This document shows, piece by piece, positions 8,867-35,871 of a stretch of 64,000 nt of DNA. The notes under the pieces are model-generated. The model was not told the DNA's origin and searched no databases. It worked only from the letters and a program-made list of their open reading frames with translations. The DNA is from Micromonospora sp. CB01531. GTDB lineage: Bacteria > Actinomycetota > Actinomycetes > Mycobacteriales > Micromonosporaceae. Position 1 is the stretch's first letter. Each line of letters begins with the position of its first letter. Both the position numbers and the translations under genes were made by a program. The stretch lies in NCBI RefSeq assembly GCF_001905095.1, contig NZ_LWLS01000001.1:172581-236580 (forward strand), in the 5' to 3' direction.

Positions 8867-9979
8867 TCAGCGGCGGGCAGGCGTCGCGGCGGTGGGGCGT
8901 GGGTCGCCCGGTGCGTGCCGCGCGGCGCGGGAGGCGGCGTGCAGGCGCAGGACGCCGGCGGCGACCGCACCCGCCCCGGTGGCCAGGATCAGCGTCACCA
9001 GCACCCGGGCCAGGCCCGCCGGCCACAGCACCGGCACCACCGAGCGGGACAGCACGGCCAGGTTCGCCACCCCGGCGAAGAGGGCCAGGCAGGCCCCGGC
9101 CAGGGCGAGCGCGAAGTCGGCGGCCTCCCGGCGAGCCAGCGCGTATCCGCCGGCGGCGAGCGCGCCGAGCCCGGTGAGCAGCGTCCACACCTGCCCGCTG
9201 ACCAGCTCGAGCAGCACCCCGCCGACGCCGGCGGCCCCGGCGTCCAGCGCCCGGCCGACGGTGAGCGCCACCGTGGCCAGCCCGCCGGCGGCGAGCAGCG
9301 CGCCCGCCGCGCGCAACGCGCGCGTACCGGCCGTCGAGCCGGCGGGAACCAGCCCGGCCGCGCCGATCAGCAGGAAGCCGAGCGTGGCGGCCACCCACCA
9401 CGGGTAGGCGTCCGGCGGCGGCACCCAGTCCAGCGTGCCGCGTACCTCGACGGGCTGGTCGCCGGTGCGCAGCGGCACCACCCAGGCGCGGACCTGCTGC
9501 TCCCGAGCCGGGTCGGCGGTGACCTGCGACGGTGGCGCCGACTCCAGCCAGAGCGTGCGCTGGTCGTGCCAGCGGGCGGTCGGCCCGGCGGAGATCCGCT
9601 GCCAGGTCGGCGGCGCCGCCGGGTCGGCCTGCGGGGGCAGCTGGGTGTCGCCGGCGATGGTCCGGTTCAGGTAGGTGGCGGGGGAGCGGGTGTTCTCGTA
9701 CACCCCGCCCGGCCCGATCCGCAGGTACGGCTCGCCGGAGTAGCCGATCACCTCGACGTCCCGCCCGGTGTGGTTGGTCAGCTCGAGCCGGGCGCCCGCC
9801 TCGACCATCCGGGCGGTGAGTCCGGGCGGGGCCGGGCTGAACTCGATCACCGCGGCCCGGTAGTTGGTGCCGTCGGGGGCGTCCGCCCCGTGCGCGGCGG
9901 CCGGGGCGGCGAGGGCGAGGAGTGCGGCGAGGGCGGCGGTGAGCACCACCGCCGCCCGGCGCAGCGGTAGGAGGCTCAC
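8867..9979 (-). CDS. Exported membrane protein with predicted N-terminal His
   Basis: I do not recognise a named family. The 370-residue product has a cleavable signal (basic LRR, hydrophobic core, APAAA) after which the mature chain would start HGADAPDGTNY. An external domain of about 190 residues follows, containing LELTNHTGRDVEVIGYSGEPYLRIG and a WLES/WVPP region. Four to five membrane helices lie in the last 160 residues. GTG 9979 overlaps the stop of the DsbA-like gene (GTGA). It is last in the sigma factor-MauE-DsbA operon, and its N-terminal histidine resembles those of the nearby CopC and YcnI proteins. A copper-handling role is inference. Confidence 0.8.
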   Translation of the reverse strand: MSLLPLRRAAVVLTAALAALLALAAPAAAHGADAPDGTNYRAAVIEFSPAPPGLTARMVEAGARLELTNHTGRDVEVIGYSGEPYLRIGPGGVYENTRSPATYLNRTIAGDTQLPPQADPAAPPTWQRISAGPTARWHDQRTLWLESAPPSQVTADPAREQQVRAWVVPLRTGDQPVEVRGTLDWVPPPDAYPWWVAATLGFLLIGAAGLVPAGSTAGTRALRAAGALLAAGGLATVALTVGRALDAGAAGVGGVLLELVSGQVWTLLTGLGALAAGGYALARREAADFALALAGACLALFAGVANLAVLSRSVVPVLWPAGLARVLVTLILATGAGAVAAGVLRLHAASRAARHAPGDPRPTAATPARR

Positions 9980-10692
9980 TTTCCGGCCGCCGCCACCGCT
10001 GCCTTGATCCCCTCGGGGCTCTTGTCTGTGAGCTCCTTGCCGTTGACCTTGATGGTCGGGGTGCCGGTGACGCCCGACTTGCTGGCGTCGTCCGTGACGT
10101 GCGCGGTCCACGCCTTGAACGTGCCGTTGTTGACGCAGGCCCCGAAGTCGTCCCGGTCCAGCCCGACGCCCGCGCCGATGTCGATCAGCTCGGCGTCGCT
10201 CAGCCCGGCGCTGCCCTCCGGCGGCTGCTTGGCGAAGAGCTCGTTGGTGAACTCCTTGAACCTCGAGCCCTTGGCGGCGCAGCCGGCGGCGGCCGAGGCG
10301 CGGGTGGAGTACTGGGTGGTGGAGAAGCGGTTCAGGAAGGCCACCGGGTGGAAGATCACCCGCACCTTGTGGTCTCTGACCAACTCGTCGATGGTCGCCC
10401 CGTTGACCTGCTGGAACTGCTTGCAGACCGGGCAGAGGTAGTCCTCGTACAGGTCGATGGTGACGGGGCCGTTTCCGTCGAGGATGCCGGTGCCGCCGGC
10501 GTTGGCGCCGGGCGGGGCGGTGAAGGTCTTCGACTGCTGGCTGGAGTAGACGGCCCAGCCGATCAGCCCGGCGATCACCAGCACCACCACCGCGGCGATC
10601 GACGTGATGATCGTGCGGGTGCGCCGCTTCTCCCGGGCGATCTGCGCGCGGACCACCTGGGCCGCCTTCTTCTGACCCTTCCGACTACTCAT
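9976..10692 (-). CDS. Membrane-anchored DsbA-like thioredoxin-fold oxidoreductase
   Basis: This 238-residue protein has a lysine/arginine-rich cytoplasmic start, one membrane anchor (about residues 28-50) and an extracytoplasmic thioredoxin domain. The active site is YLCPVCKQF (CxxC) and the cis-proline loop is GVTGTPTIKVNGK. A second Cys pair (GCAAKG, GACVNN) lies in the inserted helical domain. The DsbA/BdbD-type group oxidises or shuffles disulfides in exported proteins. It lies in an operon behind a MauE-like protein, a common pairing in which MauE supplies or relays electrons. ATG 10692 overlaps the end of the MauE gene by 8 bp. Confidence 0.92.
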   Translation of the reverse strand: MSSRKGQKKAAQVVRAQIAREKRRTRTIITSIAAVVVLVIAGLIGWAVYSSQQSKTFTAPPGANAGGTGILDGNGPVTIDLYEDYLCPVCKQFQQVNGATIDELVRDHKVRVIFHPVAFLNRFSTTQYSTRASAAAGCAAKGSRFKEFTNELFAKQPPEGSAGLSDAELIDIGAGVGLDRDDFGACVNNGTFKAWTAHVTDDASKSGVTGTPTIKVNGKELTDKSPEGIKAAVAAAGK

Positions 10693-11209
10693 CCTCGCCC
10701 TCCTCGGGTGCCGCGCCCGCCAGCCAGCCGTCCACGGAGAACGGGGTGCGGGGCCAGATCAGCAGGAATCCGGCCATGACCAGGAATCCCAGGTCCCGGA
10801 GGATCTCCGGGAGGTAGCTCGGGGCCTGCCCGGCGGCGAGTTGGCCGCCGCTGCCGAAGCACCCGCAGTCGATGGCGAGGCCGCGCGCCCAGGCCGAGGC
10901 GATGCCGGTGATGAAGACCACCAGCAGCGCCGTGGAGACGCTGGCGACCAGGCGGCTGGCCAGCCCGACGAGCAGGAGTACGCCGAGCGCCAGCTCCACG
11001 AAGGGCAGCGCGGCGCCGATCACGGTGGCCACCTCGTACGGCATGACCTGGTAGGCGTTGACCGCGCGGCCGGAGGCGGCCAGGTCGCCGACCTTGGTGG
11101 CGCCGGCGAACAACCAGACGGCGGCCAGCCCGAGCCGGACGGCGGCGCCGAGCCAGGGCCGGACGGCGGGCCACTGGATGGCCCGGGTGCTCGGTGCAGT
11201 CACGGTCAT
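10685..11209 (-). CDS. MauE/DoxX family membrane redox partner
   Basis: This 174-residue protein has four predicted helices in DoxX/MauE style: RLGLAAVWLFAGATKVGDL, ALPFVELALGVLLLVGLAS, VSTALLVVFITGIASAWARG and DLGFLVMAGFLLIW. The motif IDCGCFGSGG carries the CxC pair seen in MauE-like proteins, which work with thioredoxin-fold proteins to form disulfides. ATG 11209 has a ribosome site (GAGG). An in-frame ATG at 11245 overlaps the sigma factor stop (ATGA) and would add 12 residues. It is co-transcribed with the DsbA-like gene. Confidence 0.87.
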   Translation of the reverse strand: MTVTAPSTRAIQWPAVRPWLGAAVRLGLAAVWLFAGATKVGDLAASGRAVNAYQVMPYEVATVIGAALPFVELALGVLLLVGLASRLVASVSTALLVVFITGIASAWARGLAIDCGCFGSGGQLAAGQAPSYLPEILRDLGFLVMAGFLLIWPRTPFSVDGWLAGAAPEEGEDE

Positions 11210-11241
11210 TGGTCGCCTCGGATCCGAGAAAAGTTCCGCCG

Positions 11242-11829
11242 TCATCCGGCCAGCGCGTCGCCGACGGCGTCGACCAGCTCGCTGCGGGCCCGGGCGACGC
11301 GGGACCGGATGGTGCCCACCGGCACCCCCTCCACGGCGGCGGCCTCGGTGTATGACAGGCCGAGCAGCTGGGTGAGCACGAACGCGCCGCGCCGTTCGGC
11401 GGGCAGCCGGCGGATCAGGTCGGTGGCGCCGAGCTGCCCGGCGGGGTCGGGGTACGGCCGCTCGGTGGCCGCGTGCGCGGTGAGCCGCTCGTCGAGCCGC
11501 CGCCGGCGGACCACCGTGCGCAGGTGGTCGGCGCAGGCCCGCCGGGCGATGCCGAGCAGCCAGGTACGCGCGGTGGACCGCCCCTCGAACCCGGGCAGCG
11601 CCCGGAACGCGCGCAGGTAGGTCTCCTGGGTCAGATCGTCGGCGCTGTCCACGTCGACCAGGGCGGCGGCGAAGCGCCACACCTCGGCCTGGGTGGCGCG
11701 GACGAAGGCGGCCTGGGCGACCGGGTCCCCGTCGCCAGCGGCCAGCGCCCAGTGCGTGGCCGGGTCCGGCGCAGCGTCGGGCCCCGCCGCACGGTGGCTG
11801 GCGGAGCTGTCGCGCGGGGCGGGGATCAC
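11242..11829 (-). CDS. ECF-type RNA polymerase sigma factor
   Basis: This 195-residue sigma factor has only regions 2 and 4. Region 2 includes VWRFAAALVDVDSADDLTQETYLRAFRALPGFEGRSTARTWLLGIARR, with the DDLTQETF-like core of sigma-2.2 and the -10-recognising end. Region 4 holds LLGLSYTEAAAVEGVPVGTIRSRVARAR, the -35-binding HTH. GTG 11829 is the only usable start before region 2. The gene heads an operon with MauE, DsbA and the His-type membrane protein, so these are probable regulon members. The candidate anti-sigma factor is divergent at 11938 rather than co-transcribed. Confidence 0.93.
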   Translation of the reverse strand: MIPAPRDSSASHRAAGPDAAPDPATHWALAAGDGDPVAQAAFVRATQAEVWRFAAALVDVDSADDLTQETYLRAFRALPGFEGRSTARTWLLGIARRACADHLRTVVRRRRLDERLTAHAATERPYPDPAGQLGATDLIRRLPAERRGAFVLTQLLGLSYTEAAAVEGVPVGTIRSRVARARSELVDAVGDALAG

Positions 11830-11937
11830 GACAGACGAGGTTACGCGGCGTACGGGGGTCGGGCAGGGTCCTTCGGCCCTTTCCGTGGTCCGGCCCACGT
11901 CGGGAACTTTTCCCACCCGCCCGCCGACTACCCGCTC

Positions 11938-12582
11938 ATGACGTGCGACGAGGTTCGCCTGGCGCTGTCGGCGCGCCTGGACGGGGAGGACCCGCAGGCC
12001 CCGGCGGCGGCCCTGGAGGCGCACACCGGGTCCTGCCCGGGCTGCCGCTCCTGGCTGGCCCACGCCGAGCGGGTGACCCGGCTCACCCGGCTGCAGCCGG
12101 TGGACGTACCCGATCTGACCGCCCCGGTGCTGGCCGCCGTCGCCGCGGACCGGGCGGCGGCGCGGGCCGGTGCCGCGGCCGCCGGGCGGGCCCGGCGGCA
12201 GGTGCTCCGGGTGGCCGTGGCGGTGGCCGCGGCGGCGCAGTTCGCTGTCGCGCTGCCGATCCTGCTGGCCGGGCTGGGCGTCGACGCGGACCCGCACACC
12301 AGCCGGGAGATGGCCTCCTTCGACGCGGCCCTCGCGGTCGGCTTCGCGCTCGCCGCCTGGCGGCCGGAGCGGGCCCGGGCGTTCCTGCCGGTGGCCCTGG
12401 TGCTGGCGGTCTGCCTGGCCGGCACCAGCCTGGTGGACATCGCCGCCTCGACCACCGCCGCCGTGCACGAGTTGGGCCACCTGGCGGCCGTGGTGCAGGC
12501 CGGCCTGCTCTGGGCGCTCGGCCGGGTCAGCGACGAGCCGGAGCGGCCCCGACCCGCCGCGCTCGCCGCCGGACGCGGATGA
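11938..12582 (+). CDS. Zinc-finger anti-sigma factor, membrane-bound
   Basis: This 214-residue protein starts MTCDEVRLALSARLDGED and carries HTGSCPGC, the HxxxCxxC zinc motif of ZAS-type anti-sigma factors, at about residues 29-36. A linker (about 40-75) leads to four hydrophobic segments from about residue 84 on (VAVAVAAAAQFAVALPILLAG, ALAVGFALAAW, FLPVALVLAVCLAGTSLV, LAAVVQAGLLWALG). It should hold the neighbouring ECF sigma factor at the membrane. It is transcribed divergently from that sigma gene and runs straight into the CopC-CopD gene, placing sensing next to copper handling. A GGGAAC motif at 11902-11907 in the shared promoter could be an ECF -35 element. Confidence 0.87.
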   Translation: MTCDEVRLALSARLDGEDPQAPAAALEAHTGSCPGCRSWLAHAERVTRLTRLQPVDVPDLTAPVLAAVAADRAAARAGAAAAGRARRQVLRVAVAVAAAAQFAVALPILLAGLGVDADPHTSREMASFDAALAVGFALAAWRPERARAFLPVALVLAVCLAGTSLVDIAASTTAAVHELGHLAAVVQAGLLWALGRVSDEPERPRPAALAAGRG

Positions 12583-12626
12583 TCAGGGGTCGCCGATCCC
12601 GGGCCGCGTCGGGAAGCATGATGGTC

Positions 12627-14339
12627 ATGACTGCTGCCGTACGCCGCCGGCGCCGCCCCGCCGCCGACCGCCGCGGGGCCGACCGACCGGCCGCCGCCGA
12701 CCGCCGCTGGGCCGCCCGGCTGGGGGCCGCCGCCGGCCTGCTGGTCGCCCTGGCCGCCCTGCTCCTCGCCCCGGCCACCCCGGCCAGCGCCCACGCGGTG
12801 CTGGTGAGCACCAGCCCGACCGCCTCCGCCGTGGTGCCCGGCGCGCCGGCCGAGGTGGTGCTGACCTTCAGCGAGGGGGTCCGCAAGGTCCCGGGCAAGA
12901 TCCGGGTGATCGCCCCCGACGGCTCCCGGGCCGACCGGGGCGAGCCGACGTTCAAGGACACGGTGGTGACCATCCCGGTCGACCCGTCCGGCGCGCGCGG
13001 CACCTATCTGGTCAGCTACCGGGTGATCTCCGCCGACAGCCACCCGGTCTCCGGCGCCTTCACCTACTCGGTGGGCGCCCCGTCGACGCCGCCGACCGAC
13101 ACCGGTACGGACAGCCGCGCGAATCCGGTGGTGGAGAACGCGGTGAAGGTGGCGAAGTACGTCGGCTACCTGGGTCTGCTGCTGCTGGTCGGCCCGGCCC
13201 TGGTGCTGGCCCTGCTCTGGCCGCGCCGGCTGTCCCGGCGCGGGCCGGCCCGGCTGGCCTGGTCGGGCCTGGGCCTGCTGGCCGTCGCGACCCTGGCCGA
13301 GCTCTGGTTGCAGGTGCCCTACACGGCCGGTGGTGGCCTGTTCGCCGTGACCGGGTCCGGTTTCGGCGACGTGTTGGGCAGCGCGTACGGCACCGCGCAC
13401 CTGGTCCGGCTCGGCCTGCTCGCCGCAGCGGCGTTCCTGCTGCGGCCGCTCTTCGCCTCGCCGGTCGGCCGGACCGACGGGATCATCCTGGCCATCCTCG
13501 GCGGGGCGGCGCTGTTCACCTGGCCGCTGGCCGGCCACCCGGCCGCCTCGCCGGTGCCGGCGGTCTCGGTGGTGGTGGACGCGGTGCACCTGGGCAGCAT
13601 GGCGGTCTGGCTGGGCGGCCTGGTGATGCTCGCGGTCTTTCTGCTGCGCCGGGCCGACGAGCGGGAGCTGGACGCGATCCTGCCGATCTGGTCCCGCTGG
13701 GCGGCCCTGGCGGTCGCGGCGCTGCTGCTCGCCGGCACCGTGCAGGGGCTGATCGAGGTGGCCACCCCGCGGGCGCTGTTCGACACCACGTACGGGCAGT
13801 TGCTGCTCGCCAAGATCGGTCTGTTCGTGCTGGTGATCGGGGTGGCCGCGTACTCCCGGTCGCTGGTGCGGCGCACCGCGGCGGGCCGGCCCGGTTCGAT
13901 GCGCCGGGCGGTGGTGGCCGAGCTGGCGATCACCGCGGTGGTGCTCGGCGTCACGGCCAACCTGGTGCAGACCACGCCGGCCCGCACCGAGGCCGCCAAC
14001 GTGGCCGGTACGTCCACCGGCTACTTCTCCACCACGCTGACCAGCCCGCTCTACTCACTGCAGGTGGAGCTGGACCCGGCCCAGCGCGGCAACAACTCGA
14101 TGCACCTGTACGCGTACACCAGCGACAACCGACCGCAGCCGGTGCAGGAGTGGAAGGCCACCGCCGCGCTGCCGTCGGCCGGGATCGAGCCGATCGAGAT
14201 CCCGCTGTTGTCGCTGACCGACAACCACGCCACCGGTGAGATCAACCTGCCGGCGGCGGGGCAGTGGGTGTTTCGCTTCACCGTCCGCACGTCCGACATC
14301 GACCAGGCCACGGTGACCGCCACCGTGCCGATCAAGTAG
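12627..14339 (+). CDS. CopC-CopD fusion copper-handling protein
   Basis: This protein of about 570 residues has a long Arg-rich start, a signal/anchor (AAGLLVALAALLLAPATPASA) and then the CopC domain. CopC begins HAVLVSTSPTASAVVPGAPAEVVLTFSE, where the mature N-terminal His would bind Cu(II), and has a second His in ISADSHPVSGAFTYSVG. A CopD domain of about eight helices follows (residues 165-430), then a C-terminal external beta domain of about 120 residues with HLYAYTSDNRP. Family members move copper across the envelope for cuproenzymes or resistance. ATGs at 12579, 12618, 12621 and 12627 are possible; the last has the best GGGAAG spacing, whereas 12579 overlaps the anti-sigma stop (ATGA). 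Confidence 0.9.
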   Translation: MTAAVRRRRRPAADRRGADRPAAADRRWAARLGAAAGLLVALAALLLAPATPASAHAVLVSTSPTASAVVPGAPAEVVLTFSEGVRKVPGKIRVIAPDGSRADRGEPTFKDTVVTIPVDPSGARGTYLVSYRVISADSHPVSGAFTYSVGAPSTPPTDTGTDSRANPVVENAVKVAKYVGYLGLLLLVGPALVLALLWPRRLSRRGPARLAWSGLGLLAVATLAELWLQVPYTAGGGLFAVTGSGFGDVLGSAYGTAHLVRLGLLAAAAFLLRPLFASPVGRTDGIILAILGGAALFTWPLAGHPAASPVPAVSVVVDAVHLGSMAVWLGGLVMLAVFLLRRADERELDAILPIWSRWAALAVAALLLAGTVQGLIEVATPRALFDTTYGQLLLAKIGLFVLVIGVAAYSRSLVRRTAAGRPGSMRRAVVAELAITAVVLGVTANLVQTTPARTEAANVAGTSTGYFSTTLTSPLYSLQVELDPAQRGNNSMHLYAYTSDNRPQPVQEWKATAALPSAGIEPIEIPLLSLTDNHATGEINLPAAGQWVFRFTVRTSDIDQATVTATVPIK

Positions 14340-14354
14340 GAGAGGCTTCCGCCC

Positions 14355-15092
14355 ATGTTCCGTCTTCGGCGTCCCGCCACCGCGGCCGCGCTCGCCCTCG
14401 CCGCCGTCGCCACCGCCGTGCTCGGCCTCGCCGGCCCGGCCTCGGCGCACGTCACGGTCAACCCGAAGGAGGCGACCCAGGGCGGCTACGGCCGCTTCGC
14501 CTTCCGGGTGCCGAACGAGAGCGACACGGCCTCGACCACCAAGGTGGAGGTCTTCCTGCCGGAGGAGGCACCGGTCGGCTCGGTGTCCACCATGCCGGTG
14601 CCGGGGTGGACGGTGCAGGCGGAGAAGCGCAAGGTCGACCCGCCGATCGACGTGCACGGCAGCCAGCTCACCGAGGCGGTGGCCAAGCTGACCTTCACCG
14701 CGGCGTCGGGCGGCGGGGTCAAGCCGGGCGAGTTCCAGGAGTTCCCGGTGTCGATGGGGCCGCTGCCGCAGGTCGACCAGATGGTGTTCAAGGTGATCCA
14801 GACCTACTCGGACGGCAATGTGTCCCGCTGGATCGAGGTGCCGACGCCGGGCAAGGAGGAGCCGGAGAACCCTGCCCCGGTCCTCAAGCTGACCGCCGCG
14901 TCGCCGTCCGCCTCGCCGGCGGCGAACGGGGCCGCGAACGCCTCGCCGGCCGCGTCCGGCGGTGACGACGACTCCGACGGGAGCGCCGGCACGGCCCTCG
15001 GCGTGGCCGGTCTGGTCGCCGGCCTCGCCGGTCTGGTCCTCGGTGGGCTCGCCTTCCTGCGTACCCGTCGGGAGCCCACGCCGAAGTCCTGA
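14355..15092 (+). CDS. YcnI family (DUF1775) copper-binding membrane protein
   Basis: This 245-residue protein has a signal peptide ending GPASA followed by HVTVNPKEATQGGYGRFAFRVPNE, the start of the YcnI domain. YcnI proteins bind Cu(II) with the N-terminal His of the mature chain. Further conserved pieces are VEVFLPEEAPV, STMPVPGWTV, LTFTAASGGGVKPGEFQEFPVSMGPLP and IQTYSDGNVSRWIE. A Ser/Ala/Pro linker leads to one C-terminal membrane helix (LGVAGLVAGLAGLVLGGLAFL) and a short Arg-rich tail. It follows the CopC-CopD gene by 15 bp with GGAGAGG as ribosome site, the usual copper pairing. Confidence 0.94.
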   Translation: MFRLRRPATAAALALAAVATAVLGLAGPASAHVTVNPKEATQGGYGRFAFRVPNESDTASTTKVEVFLPEEAPVGSVSTMPVPGWTVQAEKRKVDPPIDVHGSQLTEAVAKLTFTAASGGGVKPGEFQEFPVSMGPLPQVDQMVFKVIQTYSDGNVSRWIEVPTPGKEEPENPAPVLKLTAASPSASPAANGAANASPAASGGDDDSDGSAGTALGVAGLVAGLAGLVLGGLAFLRTRREPTPKS

Positions 15093-15242: not shown

Positions 15243-16244
15243 ATGCGGTTCGTGCGAACGATCGCCGGCATGCTGCTGTTGGCCGTGGGAATCCCGGCGC
15301 TCCTCGTGGGGGCCGGGCTCTGGACCGCGGCCCGGCACGCGAACCCGGACGGCGGCTTCGGCGCCCGCTTCGAGACGATCCGCACGCCCGGGCAGGCCGT
15401 CGTGGTCACCGACGTGGACGACCTGCTCCGCGCCGAGGCGCCCTTCGCCCGGACCGCACAGGCCCGCCTACGGCTGATCGCGCGGACCGCCGACGGGCCG
15501 GCCTTCCTCGGCCTGGCCCCGACCGACCAGGTGGCCCGCTGGCTGGCGGCCGCCCCGCACGCCACCGTCAGCCGGGTCGCGCTGGCCCGCGGCCCGCTGC
15601 CGATCCGCCTGGAGCCCGCCGGCCCGGCCACCGCCGGCGCCGCCGCCACCGTCCCCGCCGAGCAGGGCTTCTGGGTACGCGAGGGGATCGGCGCGCTGGA
15701 GTGGAGCCCCGCCGAGCTGGCCGGCCGGTCGCTGAGCCTGGTGGTGATGCGGCCGGACGCGCGGGCCGACCTCGCCCTGGACCTGCGTGCCGAGCTGCGC
15801 GCCGGCTGGTTCCCCGGGCTGGCGTGGGCGCTGCTCGCCGGTGGGGTGCTGCTGGTGGTCCTCGCCGTGCTGCTCCTGCTGCGCCCGGTCCGCCCGCGCG
15901 AGGTGGTCTTCGTCGTCGAGCCTGACCAGGTCCCGCTGCTCGCCGGACGGCTCGGGGTCAGCTCGCTCAGCGGGCTGGGCACGCCCGACGGGGTGGGGGA
16001 GCGGCCGGCCTGGCCGGAGCGGCAGCTGGTCGCCGTCGGCTCGGCGCCCACCGCGCGGTCCCGGGCCGCGATCGGCCCGGTGCCGAGCCGGCGCCCGGAG
16101 ACCCTGACGGACCTGCCCGCCGATCCGGCGTGGTCCTGGCCCCCGGCGACCATGCCGGCGACCCCCCGACCGGTGGAGGTCCCGCCACGGGTGGCGTCGC
16201 CGCTGGACGCCGGGCCGGACGCGCCGGAGCCCGCCGACGGATAG
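15243..16244 (+). CDS. Hypothetical two-helix membrane protein
   Basis: I do not recognise the family. The 333-residue protein has an N-terminal helix (IAGMLLLAVGIPALLVGAGLWTAA), an external region of about 165 residues rich in Arg/Ala that mentions QFFGxx-like elements nowhere and has no Cys, then a second helix (LAWALLAGGVLLVVLAVLLLLRPV) and a cytoplasmic tail of about 115 residues rich in Pro and Ala (from about residue 218). ATG 15243 follows GGGAGAGG. It stands alone between two terminator-like hairpins. Topology suggests a sensor or scaffold of the envelope, but no function can be assigned. Confidence 0.8.
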   Translation: MRFVRTIAGMLLLAVGIPALLVGAGLWTAARHANPDGGFGARFETIRTPGQAVVVTDVDDLLRAEAPFARTAQARLRLIARTADGPAFLGLAPTDQVARWLAAAPHATVSRVALARGPLPIRLEPAGPATAGAAATVPAEQGFWVREGIGALEWSPAELAGRSLSLVVMRPDARADLALDLRAELRAGWFPGLAWALLAGGVLLVVLAVLLLLRPVRPREVVFVVEPDQVPLLAGRLGVSSLSGLGTPDGVGERPAWPERQLVAVGSAPTARSRAAIGPVPSRRPETLTDLPADPAWSWPPATMPATPRPVEVPPRVASPLDAGPDAPEPADG

Positions 16245-34860: not shown

Positions 34861-35871
34861 TCAGATCAGGTCGCGACGGCGGAACGCGGCGAACGCGGCC
34901 CCGACCAGCACCACGGTCAACCCGAGCAGCACCGCCAGCCCGGGTCGCCAGGTCAGGGTGTACAGGCCCTGGCAGAAGCCGGAGATGTCGCCCTGGCAGG
35001 CGCTGCGGTCCCAGAACTCGACCTCACCGCTGAGCCAGGCCCCCAGGTAGCTGGAGAGCATCCACTGGTCCGGACGGGCCACGTCGAGGATCTGCAGCAC
35101 CAGTCGCGCCCCCAGCTCCCACACCACCAGGTACGCGGCCACCGTGCCGAGCGCCGCGGCGGTGTGCCGGCCCAGCGTCGCGATGGCGAAGCCGACCGCC
35201 GCGGCGATCAGCACCAGCGCCATCCCCCGCCCGTGCTGGACGCCCAGCGACGCCCAGAACGACCCGTCCATCGGGCCGGGGTACCCGACCGTCTGGCCGA
35301 TCAGCCAGAACACCGTCAGATACGCCGCCGACGCCACCGCGGAGAACACCAGCAGCCCGGCGAGCAGCGTGCCGAGCTTGGCGCCGAGCACCGCCCACCG
35401 GCGGGGTCGCCACAGCAGCAGGTTGACCACGCCGCCCGAGTTCAGATCGGCGCCGATGTAGGAGGCTCCGACCAGGAAGCCGAACAGCACCAGGAACGCG
35501 ATCAGGAAGTAGAGCAGCGGCTTGGCCTCGGTGGCGAAGACGAACACTCCGCTGAGGTAGTCCGAGGTGGTCGGCAACCGCTCCATCCGCCCCGGGTCCA
35601 CCTCGGCGCAGTCCTTGGGCACGTAGTCGTGCTCCTGCGGCTCCACGGTCCCGGCCTTGATGGCCAGACAGCGATCGTGCGCCGCCTCCAGCTGCGCGAT
35701 CTGCTCCGCGGCCTGCGCCCGGGCCCGGCTCAACTCCTCGGCCGAGGGCTGGTGTGAGCCGGCCAGCGTGGTCCCCGCGGTCACCGCGAAGGCGACCAGC
35801 AGCAGCACCACCATCAGTTGCACGAAGCGGCGGGCGGTCAGCCGCTCCAACTCGGCACGGACCAGGTTCAC
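34861..35871 (-). CDS. ABC exporter permease (ABC-2 type)
   Basis: This 336-residue membrane subunit has about six helices (RFVQLMVVLLLVAFAVTAGTTL, LLYFLIAFLVLFGFLVGASYIGAD, LGTLLAGLLVFSAVASAAYLTVFWLIG, MALVLIAAAVGFAIATLG, LGTVAAYLVVWELGARLVL, VLLGLTVVLVGAAFAAFRRRD). A long first external loop holds two cysteines (DRCLAIKAG, KDCAEVDP); a second pair (SACQGD, GFCQGL) lies before the last helix, so disulfides are possible. GTG 35871 overlaps the ATPase stop (GTGA). The pair probably exports a peptide, lipid or drug. Confidence 0.88.
   Translation of the reverse strand: MNLVRAELERLTARRFVQLMVVLLLVAFAVTAGTTLAGSHQPSAEELSRARAQAAEQIAQLEAAHDRCLAIKAGTVEPQEHDYVPKDCAEVDPGRMERLPTTSDYLSGVFVFATEAKPLLYFLIAFLVLFGFLVGASYIGADLNSGGVVNLLLWRPRRWAVLGAKLGTLLAGLLVFSAVASAAYLTVFWLIGQTVGYPGPMDGSFWASLGVQHGRGMALVLIAAAVGFAIATLGRHTAAALGTVAAYLVVWELGARLVLQILDVARPDQWMLSSYLGAWLSGEVEFWDRSACQGDISGFCQGLYTLTWRPGLAVLLGLTVVLVGAAFAAFRRRDLI

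Follow-up and report, generated by a model that had tools for sequence, protein, structure and literature searches.

A probable SigC-type copper regulon in Micromonospora sp. CB01531 and an undescribed membrane protein family, candidate copper handlers with a mature N-terminal histidine

In a 64,000-nucleotide stretch of the 9.24-Mb genome of Micromonospora sp. CB01531 (contig NZ_LWLS01000001.1, positions 172,581 to 236,580 of the forward strand; the whole stretch is called the window hereafter), two divergent operons were identified. The leftward one encodes an extracytoplasmic function (ECF) sigma factor, a MauE/DoxX-like membrane protein, a DsbA-like thioredoxin and an undescribed membrane protein of 370 amino acids, designated U370; the rightward one encodes a membrane anti-sigma factor, a YcnJ-like CopC-CopD fusion and YcnI. 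Our results make it probable that both operons belong to a SigC-type regulon for copper acquisition and metallation, in which U370 would be a new copper ectodomain with an N-terminal histidine, carried on a membrane domain. This reading is drawn from sequence comparison and structure prediction.

Many soil actinobacteria possess U370: tblastn located it in 206 of the 250 genomes searched from its bacterial family and in 21 of the 296 searched from the class. From these, 39 stretches containing 40 U370 open reading frames (ORFs) were fetched, which comprise 20 hand-chosen representatives of the 206 family genomes plus 19 of the 20 matches from beyond the family. A second set, obtained by a pattern scan, consists of the best 80 of 443 relatives with 81 U370 ORFs, and according to the record titles it spans Frankia, Geodermatophilaceae, Acidimicrobiia, Catenulisporales and Micromonosporaceae. 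The two sets share organisms. Duplicates were removed for the promoter counts over 109 loci and for the counts of motif position at mauE, the anti-sigma gene and U370, but not for the other locus counts.

The preliminary description of this cluster had claimed that three of its proteins end their signal peptide with AxA directly before a histidine, and this was borne out. The sites read APAAA|HGADAP in U370 (8867..9979, minus strand; signal 9979-9893, mature His1 codon 9892-9890), PASA|HAVLVS in the CopC-CopD fusion (~12579..14339, plus strand, start codon uncertain; His1 codon 12792-12794) and PASA|HVTVN in YcnI (14355..15092, plus strand; His1 codon 14448-14450). His1 of CopC and of YcnI is reported as a copper ligand (PMC12362106; PMC8424229); since the histidine is expected in these two proteins, only that of U370 is new. 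For all counts of histidine at position +1, signal cleavage was judged from the motif alone. In the 80-locus set, Ala|His follows a signal-type stretch in 77 of the 81 U370 ORFs (76 read by script and L172 by eye), and the 76 script-read sites comprise 73 AxA, 2 VxA and 1 TxA. The other four ORFs were unreadable: L127 lies at a contig end, L113 contains a run of N, and L110 and L116 have no signal peptide in frame above the match. The tblastn set gave histidine in 38 of 40 ORFs (36 by script, L093 and L094 by eye), the remaining two being L088, with aspartate, and L090, which is masked. When a crude signal-peptide rule was applied to the ORFs of the fetched loci, histidine stood at +1 in 50 of 69 U370, 32 of 35 YcnI and 27 of 33 CopC or CopC-CopD ORFs, versus 10 of 177 background proteins; an earlier cleavage rule, which placed the cut too early and scored U370 at 9 of 54, was dropped. 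The residues following the U370 histidine differ (HGAD, HTVG, HEVG, HVGG, HDT), which argues that the histidine itself is selected. We concluded that the predicted mature N-terminal histidine is nearly universal in the U370 family.

Besides His1, the other conserved block of U370 is WHD(H/Q)R. Among 26 sequences hand-picked from the 40 tblastn ORFs without use of the WHDHR pattern (near-duplicate, tandem and unreadable forms were omitted, and all have a readable Ala|His), H138, R141, W126, W166, N96, Y103 and N105 are invariant and D139 is kept in at least 90% (precursor numbering). In a larger alignment of 59 sequences, which were pattern-selected and chosen for a readable histidine, H1, N67, W97, W108, H109, D110, R112 and P128 are invariant (mature numbering), position 111 is histidine in 55 and glutamine in 4, and position 114 is histidine in 54. 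Since the patterns used for the pattern-found loci include [WF]HDHRxHW, the conservation of WHDHR there is partly due to selection. No conserved cysteine is present in the 59 mature sequences. U370 of the window matched neither Pfam nor NCBIfam and gave no significant sequence match in PDB, and the Pfam scan of the 59 members gave no convincing relative; DUF1775, CopC (PF04234) and PF13795 were all unmatched, the last of them even at E<=1 for the window protein. The PDB profile search returned nine designed beta-trefoils at E 4e-05 to 9e-04, with repeated copies aligned over about 35 residues, followed by ribosomal eL39 at E 0.0045; both were read as short chance matches. No description of U370 was found in the open-licence literature searched. 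The suggestion that the 370-aa protein is a candidate new copper-binding family is supported by its nearly universal N-terminal histidine and its conserved neighbourhood. We regard U370 as a conserved, undescribed family that is a strong candidate for a new group of copper-handling proteins.

The sigma factor (11242..11829, minus strand; sigma-70 r2/r4 by Pfam, start probably GTG 11829) scores 166 bits against the SigC model (NCBIfam equivalog PRK09649), whose cut-off of 219 is not reached. In 61 genomes of the order, SigC-like matches extend from 366 to 130 bits (the group ends at 129.8) and the next matches begin at 79 bits. Since 166 bits lies above this gap and below the cut-off, the protein was placed in the SigC-like group, yet not called a SigC equivalog. 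On reading the intergenic regions we saw GGGAAC-N17-CGACTA right before the anti-sigma gene; it corresponds to GGAAC-N17-CGACTA at 11903..11930 (plus strand) with a G in front. Because the ATG of the anti-sigma gene is only 7 nt past the -10 element, its mRNA is probably leaderless. A second match, GGAAC-N17-CGACCA at 11210..11237 (minus strand), lies upstream of mauE-dsbA-U370; because it sits inside the long mauE ORF, the start used for mauE is probably GTG 11203-11201. The window contains three matches to GGAAC-N16-18-CGACYA (0.24 expected; none of 100 shuffles reached three), one at each of the two operons and a third at 34881. In a count across 109 unique U370 loci, GGGAAC-N16-18-CGAC gave 85 matches versus 3 for the reversed pattern, 59 of them near the start of a cluster gene. 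The motif was found before the anti-sigma gene, copCD or ycnI in 37 of the 44 loci that have the sigma gene plus an anti-sigma gene or copCD, at the aligned mauE start in 24 of 34 loci, and before the anti-sigma gene in 32 of 36. These positions suggest that both operons are under common sigma control. The cluster had been described earlier as a sigma-controlled copper and disulfide unit; the control and copper parts fit the matched motifs before both operons and the copper neighbours (CopC-CopD in 51 of 80 loci), whereas the disulfide half, MauE and DsbA, was found in just 18 of 80.

The motif recurs before copper-type genes elsewhere in the organism's own genome and in other genomes. The own genome contains 8 exact GGGAAC-N16-18-CGACTA sites versus 4 for the control. 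Five are sensible: those at this cluster, at a PepSY_TM gene, at a second ycnI, at the anti-sigma gene of a DyP-CopC-CopD cluster and at a SigC-adjacent anti-sigma gene; the sites on contigs C59, C83 and C109 look like chance. The PepSY_TM gene and the second ycnI (product ASA|HVSVN) are preceded by a divergent pair of motifs. Another motif stands before an anti-sigma gene that is followed by a PCuAC-like match, DyP, CopC (AAA|HNSLQ) and CopD-CtaG, beside a second SigC-like sigma gene; a further one precedes the anti-sigma gene adjoining a third, and the genome has four SigC-like sigma factors in total. On contigs C58 (L184), C115 (L225, L226) and C63 (L186) we observed extra genes for SigC-like sigma, anti-sigma, CopC, CopD-CtaG, PepSY_TM, DyP and YcnI, several with the motif, and on C58 the PepSY_TM gene is followed by FecCD/FecB-like genes, as judged by eye.

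Outside this genome, 33 SigC-like loci fetched by the sigma factor alone had an anti-sigma match in 28, GGGAAC-N16-18-CGAC in 27, and CopC, CopD, PCuAC or DyP within about 1.5 kb in 20; a motif match was also present in one of two unrelated sigma loci. From a class-wide motif scan, 16 sites in other genomes were chosen by eye, mostly for GGGAACT, and five of them precede copper-type genes. The motif lies before PepSY_TM in L228, which also has a SigC-like sigma factor and DsbA, and in L231; in L229 one gene comes between it and PepSY_TM; in L230 it precedes anti-sigma-CopC and in L232 CopC-PCuAC, then a DyP-like gene (by eye). Of the other chosen sites, L237 is a U370 locus already in the set, and nine (L233-L236, L238-L242) were unconvincing. 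In L227, a mycobacterium-like locus, the site GGGAACTTTT stands before a PPE-like gene followed by ESX-like genes, and a metal ABC transporter adjoins (by eye). All 13 mycobacterium-like SigC loci, whose products are 59-64% identical to the reference SigC, carry the motif, and in 11 of them an HMA-type metal-binding motif starts 115-166 bp downstream of it; for the copper-ATPase-like gene of L245, the Pfam families HMA and E1-E2 ATPase were confirmed. These motif-ATPase pairs fit ctpB, a reported SigC target (PMC7924339). A different regulator was seen in L165 (Geodermatophilus aquaeductus): here the neighbours of U370 include a Penicillinase_R repressor and a peptidase of M48/M56-like type, and no sigma match was found in the locus.

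The anti-sigma factor (11938..12582, plus strand) is of the zinc-associated anti-sigma (ZAS) type, since it has a zf-HC2 domain with HxxxCxxC. Of 87 matches, 82 had this zinc-finger pattern, and 74 relatives were compared after omission of the 5 without it and of 8 that were duplicate (by the first 60 residues), masked or short; HxxxCxxC is present in all 74 because its extraction was conditional on the pattern. Zinc-finger residues aside, Q101 is kept in 74 of 74, H120 in 73, E124 in 66, D167 in 74 and H181 in 74 (window numbering), and these residues fall, by eye, in the apparent membrane part. This His/Glu/Asp/His set would be a natural metal sensor. In the mycobacterium-like loci with the closest SigC orthologs (L243, L244, L272-L286), a zf-HC2/DUF2275 membrane anti-sigma domain upstream runs on in frame into SigC, with no intervening stop in 17 of 17 (Pfam in L243), and this in-frame domain is a candidate for the missing anti-SigC. 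No such anti-sigma match was found within 1.5 kb in 13 more distant SigC loci, with 30 of the 40 listed places examined. M. tuberculosis itself presumably has no room for the fused domain. As of 2021, no anti-SigC factor had been identified in that species (PMC7924339). In 12 of the 17 loci (L244, L273-L277, L279, L280, L282, L283, L285, L286) we also noted a SigC-type motif above the fusion, facing the neighbour gene. L243 itself has no motif, and its neighbour is a class A beta-lactamase-like gene; the fusions of L243 and L244 stand beside BlaC-like and/or CobM-like genes.

The neighbourhood of U370 is conserved, as the preliminary description had proposed checking: CopC-CopD accompanies U370 in 31 and YcnI in 25 of the 39 stretches, and the 80 loci contain matches for CopC-CopD in 51, YcnI in 36, either in 54, sigma in 33, anti-sigma in 25, MauE in 18 and DsbA in 18. 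Among the 45 loci with at least 4.5 kb on both sides, CopC-CopD lies within 5 kb of U370 in 33. Eight of the 39 stretches lack CopC-CopD; six of these have two matches per ORF, that is, a tandem-ectodomain form, and one is a short contig. The tandem forms appear by eye to have one C-terminal membrane helix, and a gene for a secreted galactose/glyoxal-oxidase-like protein (GO-like_E_set, Kelch) adjoins them in all four examined (L087, L089, L092, L094) of the eight stretches. U370 is fused to a DyP peroxidase in all three scanned proteins of more than 700 residues (Pfam; L100, L139 and L143, from Catellatospora, Longispora and Catenulispora); the L139 protein also holds a C-terminal cupredoxin, and a separate cupredoxin gene directly follows another of the fusions. 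In two U370 proteins of about 510-520 residues the Pfam scan found no family. Long products resembling fusions were further seen in L109, L119, L124, L125, L128, L133, L134, L140, L149 and L156. In Streptomyces, the DyP DtpA is reported to be needed for maturing the copper oxidase GlxA at low copper (PMC4736821), so these associations of U370 point toward copper as well.

The model of full mature U370 (predicted local distance difference test score, pLDDT, 94.9; predicted template modelling score, pTM, 0.90) has a beta-rich domain at residues ~1-160 and helices at 163-326, about five of which appear by eye to be membrane helices. None of the solved structures compared was a convincing relative. 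Foldseek gave no structural match at E<=0.001. With VIA-align, the best match of the ectodomain was a translocon-complex chain, probably a TRAP subunit (Z 5.9, 91 residues, 3.5 A). Matches of the whole model to helix bundles, including copper storage proteins at Z 9-10, are within the chance range for helical bundles and were rejected. The absence of CopC, YcnI, PCuAC and Ang-1 from the fold matches does not mean that their folds differ from that of U370.

Among described systems, the anglerases Ang-1 and Ang-2 (PMC12537917) resemble U370 as reported in a signal peptide, a conserved His1, a beta-rich ectodomain on membrane helices and proposed metal capture. U370 differs from them in the lack of PF13795 (HupE/UreJ_2) in the 59 members, in the WHD(H/Q)R block, in the copper neighbourhood and SigC-type motifs, and in having about five modelled helices versus the eight reported for the Ang-2 model (PMC12537917). 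Because HupE/UreJ_2 was not found, U370 is anglerase-like yet outside Ang-1/Ang-2 as defined. YcnI (DUF1775; PMC8424229) is likewise reported to be extracellular and membrane-anchored, with an N-terminal histidine and beside CopC-CopD, whereas U370 does not match DUF1775, has several membrane helices where YcnI has one, and conserves other residues. The CopC domain of YcnJ (PMC12362106) shares, as described, the mature N-terminal histidine, Asp and His as candidate ligands and a joined membrane domain; unlike it, U370 has no CopC match, has a 160-residue ectodomain and shows no CopD match in its membrane part. The M. tuberculosis SigC (ECF36) regulon, as far as it is described in PMC7924339 and PMC8999054, is like the window system in sigma score group, copper targets and the motif, which in mycobacterium-like genomes adjoins sigC and copper-ATPase-like genes. 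The window sigma factor differs from it in scoring below the equivalog cut-off, in its separate membrane anti-sigma factor, and in the nearby targets CopC-CopD, YcnI and U370 versus nrp. The Streptomyces Sco-ECuC-DtpA pathway for GlxA, in which a DyP and the maturation of a radical copper oxidase are combined, is a parallel to the U370-DyP fusions and tandem forms; the operon, as described in PMC4736821, includes no U370.

The earlier gene calls and coordinates held on re-examination of the ORFs. In the leftward operon every start overlaps the preceding stop by 4-8 bp: the long MauE ORF (10685..11245, minus strand) begins over the sigma stop, and the stop of the DsbA-like gene (9976..10692, minus strand; Thioredoxin_4/DSBA, CPVC) overlaps the U370 start by 4 bp. 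Likewise CopC-CopD and YcnI do come after the anti-sigma gene on the plus strand (11938-12582, ~12579-14339, 14355-15092). Pfam assigns every protein of the cluster (CopC plus CopD, DUF1775, Thioredoxin_4/DSBA, MauE, sigma-70 r2/r4, zf-HC2) except U370. The fusion has both CopC and CopD domains and keeps H1, D82 and H84 by Pfam and residue reading; the NCBIfam CopC and CopD equivalog cut-offs were not reached. Together with H1, D82 and H84 (numbered from the start of mature CopC) are the probable copper ligands, and a His brace is reported for the CopC domain of YcnJ (PMC12362106). YcnI has a C-terminal hydrophobic stretch and shows H1 and Glu24 at the spacing of His27 and Glu50 of B. subtilis, and W128 is likely its expected tryptophan. 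Downstream, at 15243-16244 (plus strand), lies a gene for a protein without significant Pfam match, which accompanies the cluster in 11 of the 80 loci.

We favour copper acquisition and metallation over resistance as the probable function of the regulon. The membrane anti-sigma factor would sense the outside copper status through its His/Glu/Asp/His set and release the sigma factor when copper is short, and the freed SigC-type sigma factor would then induce both operons. U370 would capture Cu(II) by its N-terminal amine and His1, likely helped by H109 and D110, while YcnI would likewise bind Cu(II) outside the membrane via its N-terminal histidine. U370 and YcnI may exchange Cu(II) with each other and with the CopC domain, so that it can either enter through CopD or be loaded into secreted cuproenzymes, and MauE-DsbA could keep disulfides or copper-site thiols in the proper state. 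SigC is reported to prevent copper starvation in M. tuberculosis (PMC7924339), and in B. subtilis YcnI and the CopC domain of YcnJ are reported to bind and exchange Cu(II) and to support growth under copper limitation (PMC12362106).

Several observations weigh against this reading. In the class-wide motif scan, in which 66 of 118 genomes matched, the control columns, which were compared by eye and not summed, looked about as large, so that most single sites of that scan are chance. In the U370 loci 26 of the 85 motif matches lie away from any scanned cluster gene, and among the 75 loci without mauE the motif is near U370 in only 7, all of which encode long DyP-fusion-type products (two Pfam-checked); these counts suggest direct control of U370 by the sigma factor chiefly in loci that have mauE. 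The ectodomain model scores well overall (pLDDT 92.5, pTM 0.86), but its residues 1-4, including His1, fall below pLDDT 50. The relative L088, a tandem form, has Asp at the place of the histidine. U370 of the window itself has Q and L at positions 111 and 114 of the usual WHDHRxHW block, and its candidate ligands are therefore limited to the amine, H1, H109 and D110. Two further points of this kind, concerning Frankia and the cobalt-type genes next to U370, are given below with the explanations they favour.

A response to copper excess, in which U370, YcnI and CopC would buffer or sequester Cu(II) outside the membrane, is rather unlikely in our estimate. In its favour, and counter to pure starvation, the CopC, CopD and YcnJ genes of Frankia EuI1c are reported to be induced by elevated copper (PMC4531530). 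Also in its favour, 11 of the 13 mycobacterium-like loci have the motif ahead of a copper-ATPase-like gene that adjoins sigC. Pumps of the copper-ATPase type usually export copper. However, CtpB is reported to help growth in copper-limited niches (PMC9147137), M. tuberculosis SigC works in copper starvation (PMC7924339), the B. subtilis ycn operon is up in starvation (PMC12362106), and no efflux pump or multicopper oxidase was found by Pfam among the scanned cluster genes; because of the SigC and ycn precedents, starvation is favoured over excess. That the captured metal is nickel or cobalt, with cbiMNQO as the importer, seems improbable. A cobalt-type transporter operon does adjoin U370 in the window (CbiQ and CbiO; CbiM/CbiN-like genes named by eye), a cbiM-like match recurs in 13 of the 20 family loci, and N-terminal histidine sites are reported to bind Ni(II) too (PMC12537917). 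Yet this operon is convergent with U370 and has no motif match before it in the window; over the 80 loci, CbiM, CbiN and CbiQ were each matched in 8 (CbiO-like in 18) versus 51 for CopC-CopD, and the partners seen with some U370 forms, namely DyP, cupredoxin and glyoxal-oxidase-like proteins, are of redox or copper type.

The two remaining explanations concern U370 alone. The overlap of its gene with those of MauE and DsbA in this lineage would suit a metal-free redox protein or disulfide client of DsbA, whose histidine is kept for signal processing or structure; with MauE and DsbA matched in so few U370 loci, histidine at +1 uncommon elsewhere (10 of 177 secreted proteins) and no conserved cysteine in U370, we give this little credence. 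Slightly less credible still is that U370, instead of being a carrier, is a copper enzyme that uses a His brace as an oxidase, a peroxidase or a monooxygenase. The N-terminal histidine together with the W-H-x-H block of most relatives, the fusion to DyP peroxidase and a weak likeness of the ectodomain to PmoB/AmoB chains (Z 3.4-3.9, 90-94 residues, 4.5-6.1 A) speak for it; but chance arrangements also reach such Z values, the second and third histidines are not invariant, and for Ang-1 and Ang-2, whose His1 site is comparable, only weak oxidase activity like that of free Cu(II) is reported (PMC12537917).

Beyond the copper acquisition regulon itself, we tentatively propose a wider reading, which is appreciably less secure. 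U370 may be a new extracellular domain for copper capture and metallation, built on His1 and the WHD block, that is deployed on membrane helices, on DyP or beside radical copper oxidases. It might be controlled within an ancient regulon of SigC type, in which the membrane anti-sigma factor, with its near-invariant His120/Glu124/Asp167/His181, would itself be the outside copper sensor and would be fused in frame to SigC in many mycobacterium-like genomes. Extracytoplasmic copper recognition and acquisition are described as little known in bacteria of any species (PMC12362106). The question raised by U370 is directly testable, because the family, which has no domain model in the libraries searched, combines a near-universal N-terminal histidine with a simple construct for expression, some 160 residues long, and a defined promoter motif; and the conserved residues of the anti-sigma factor are a concrete candidate for how SigC-type sigma factors receive their signal.

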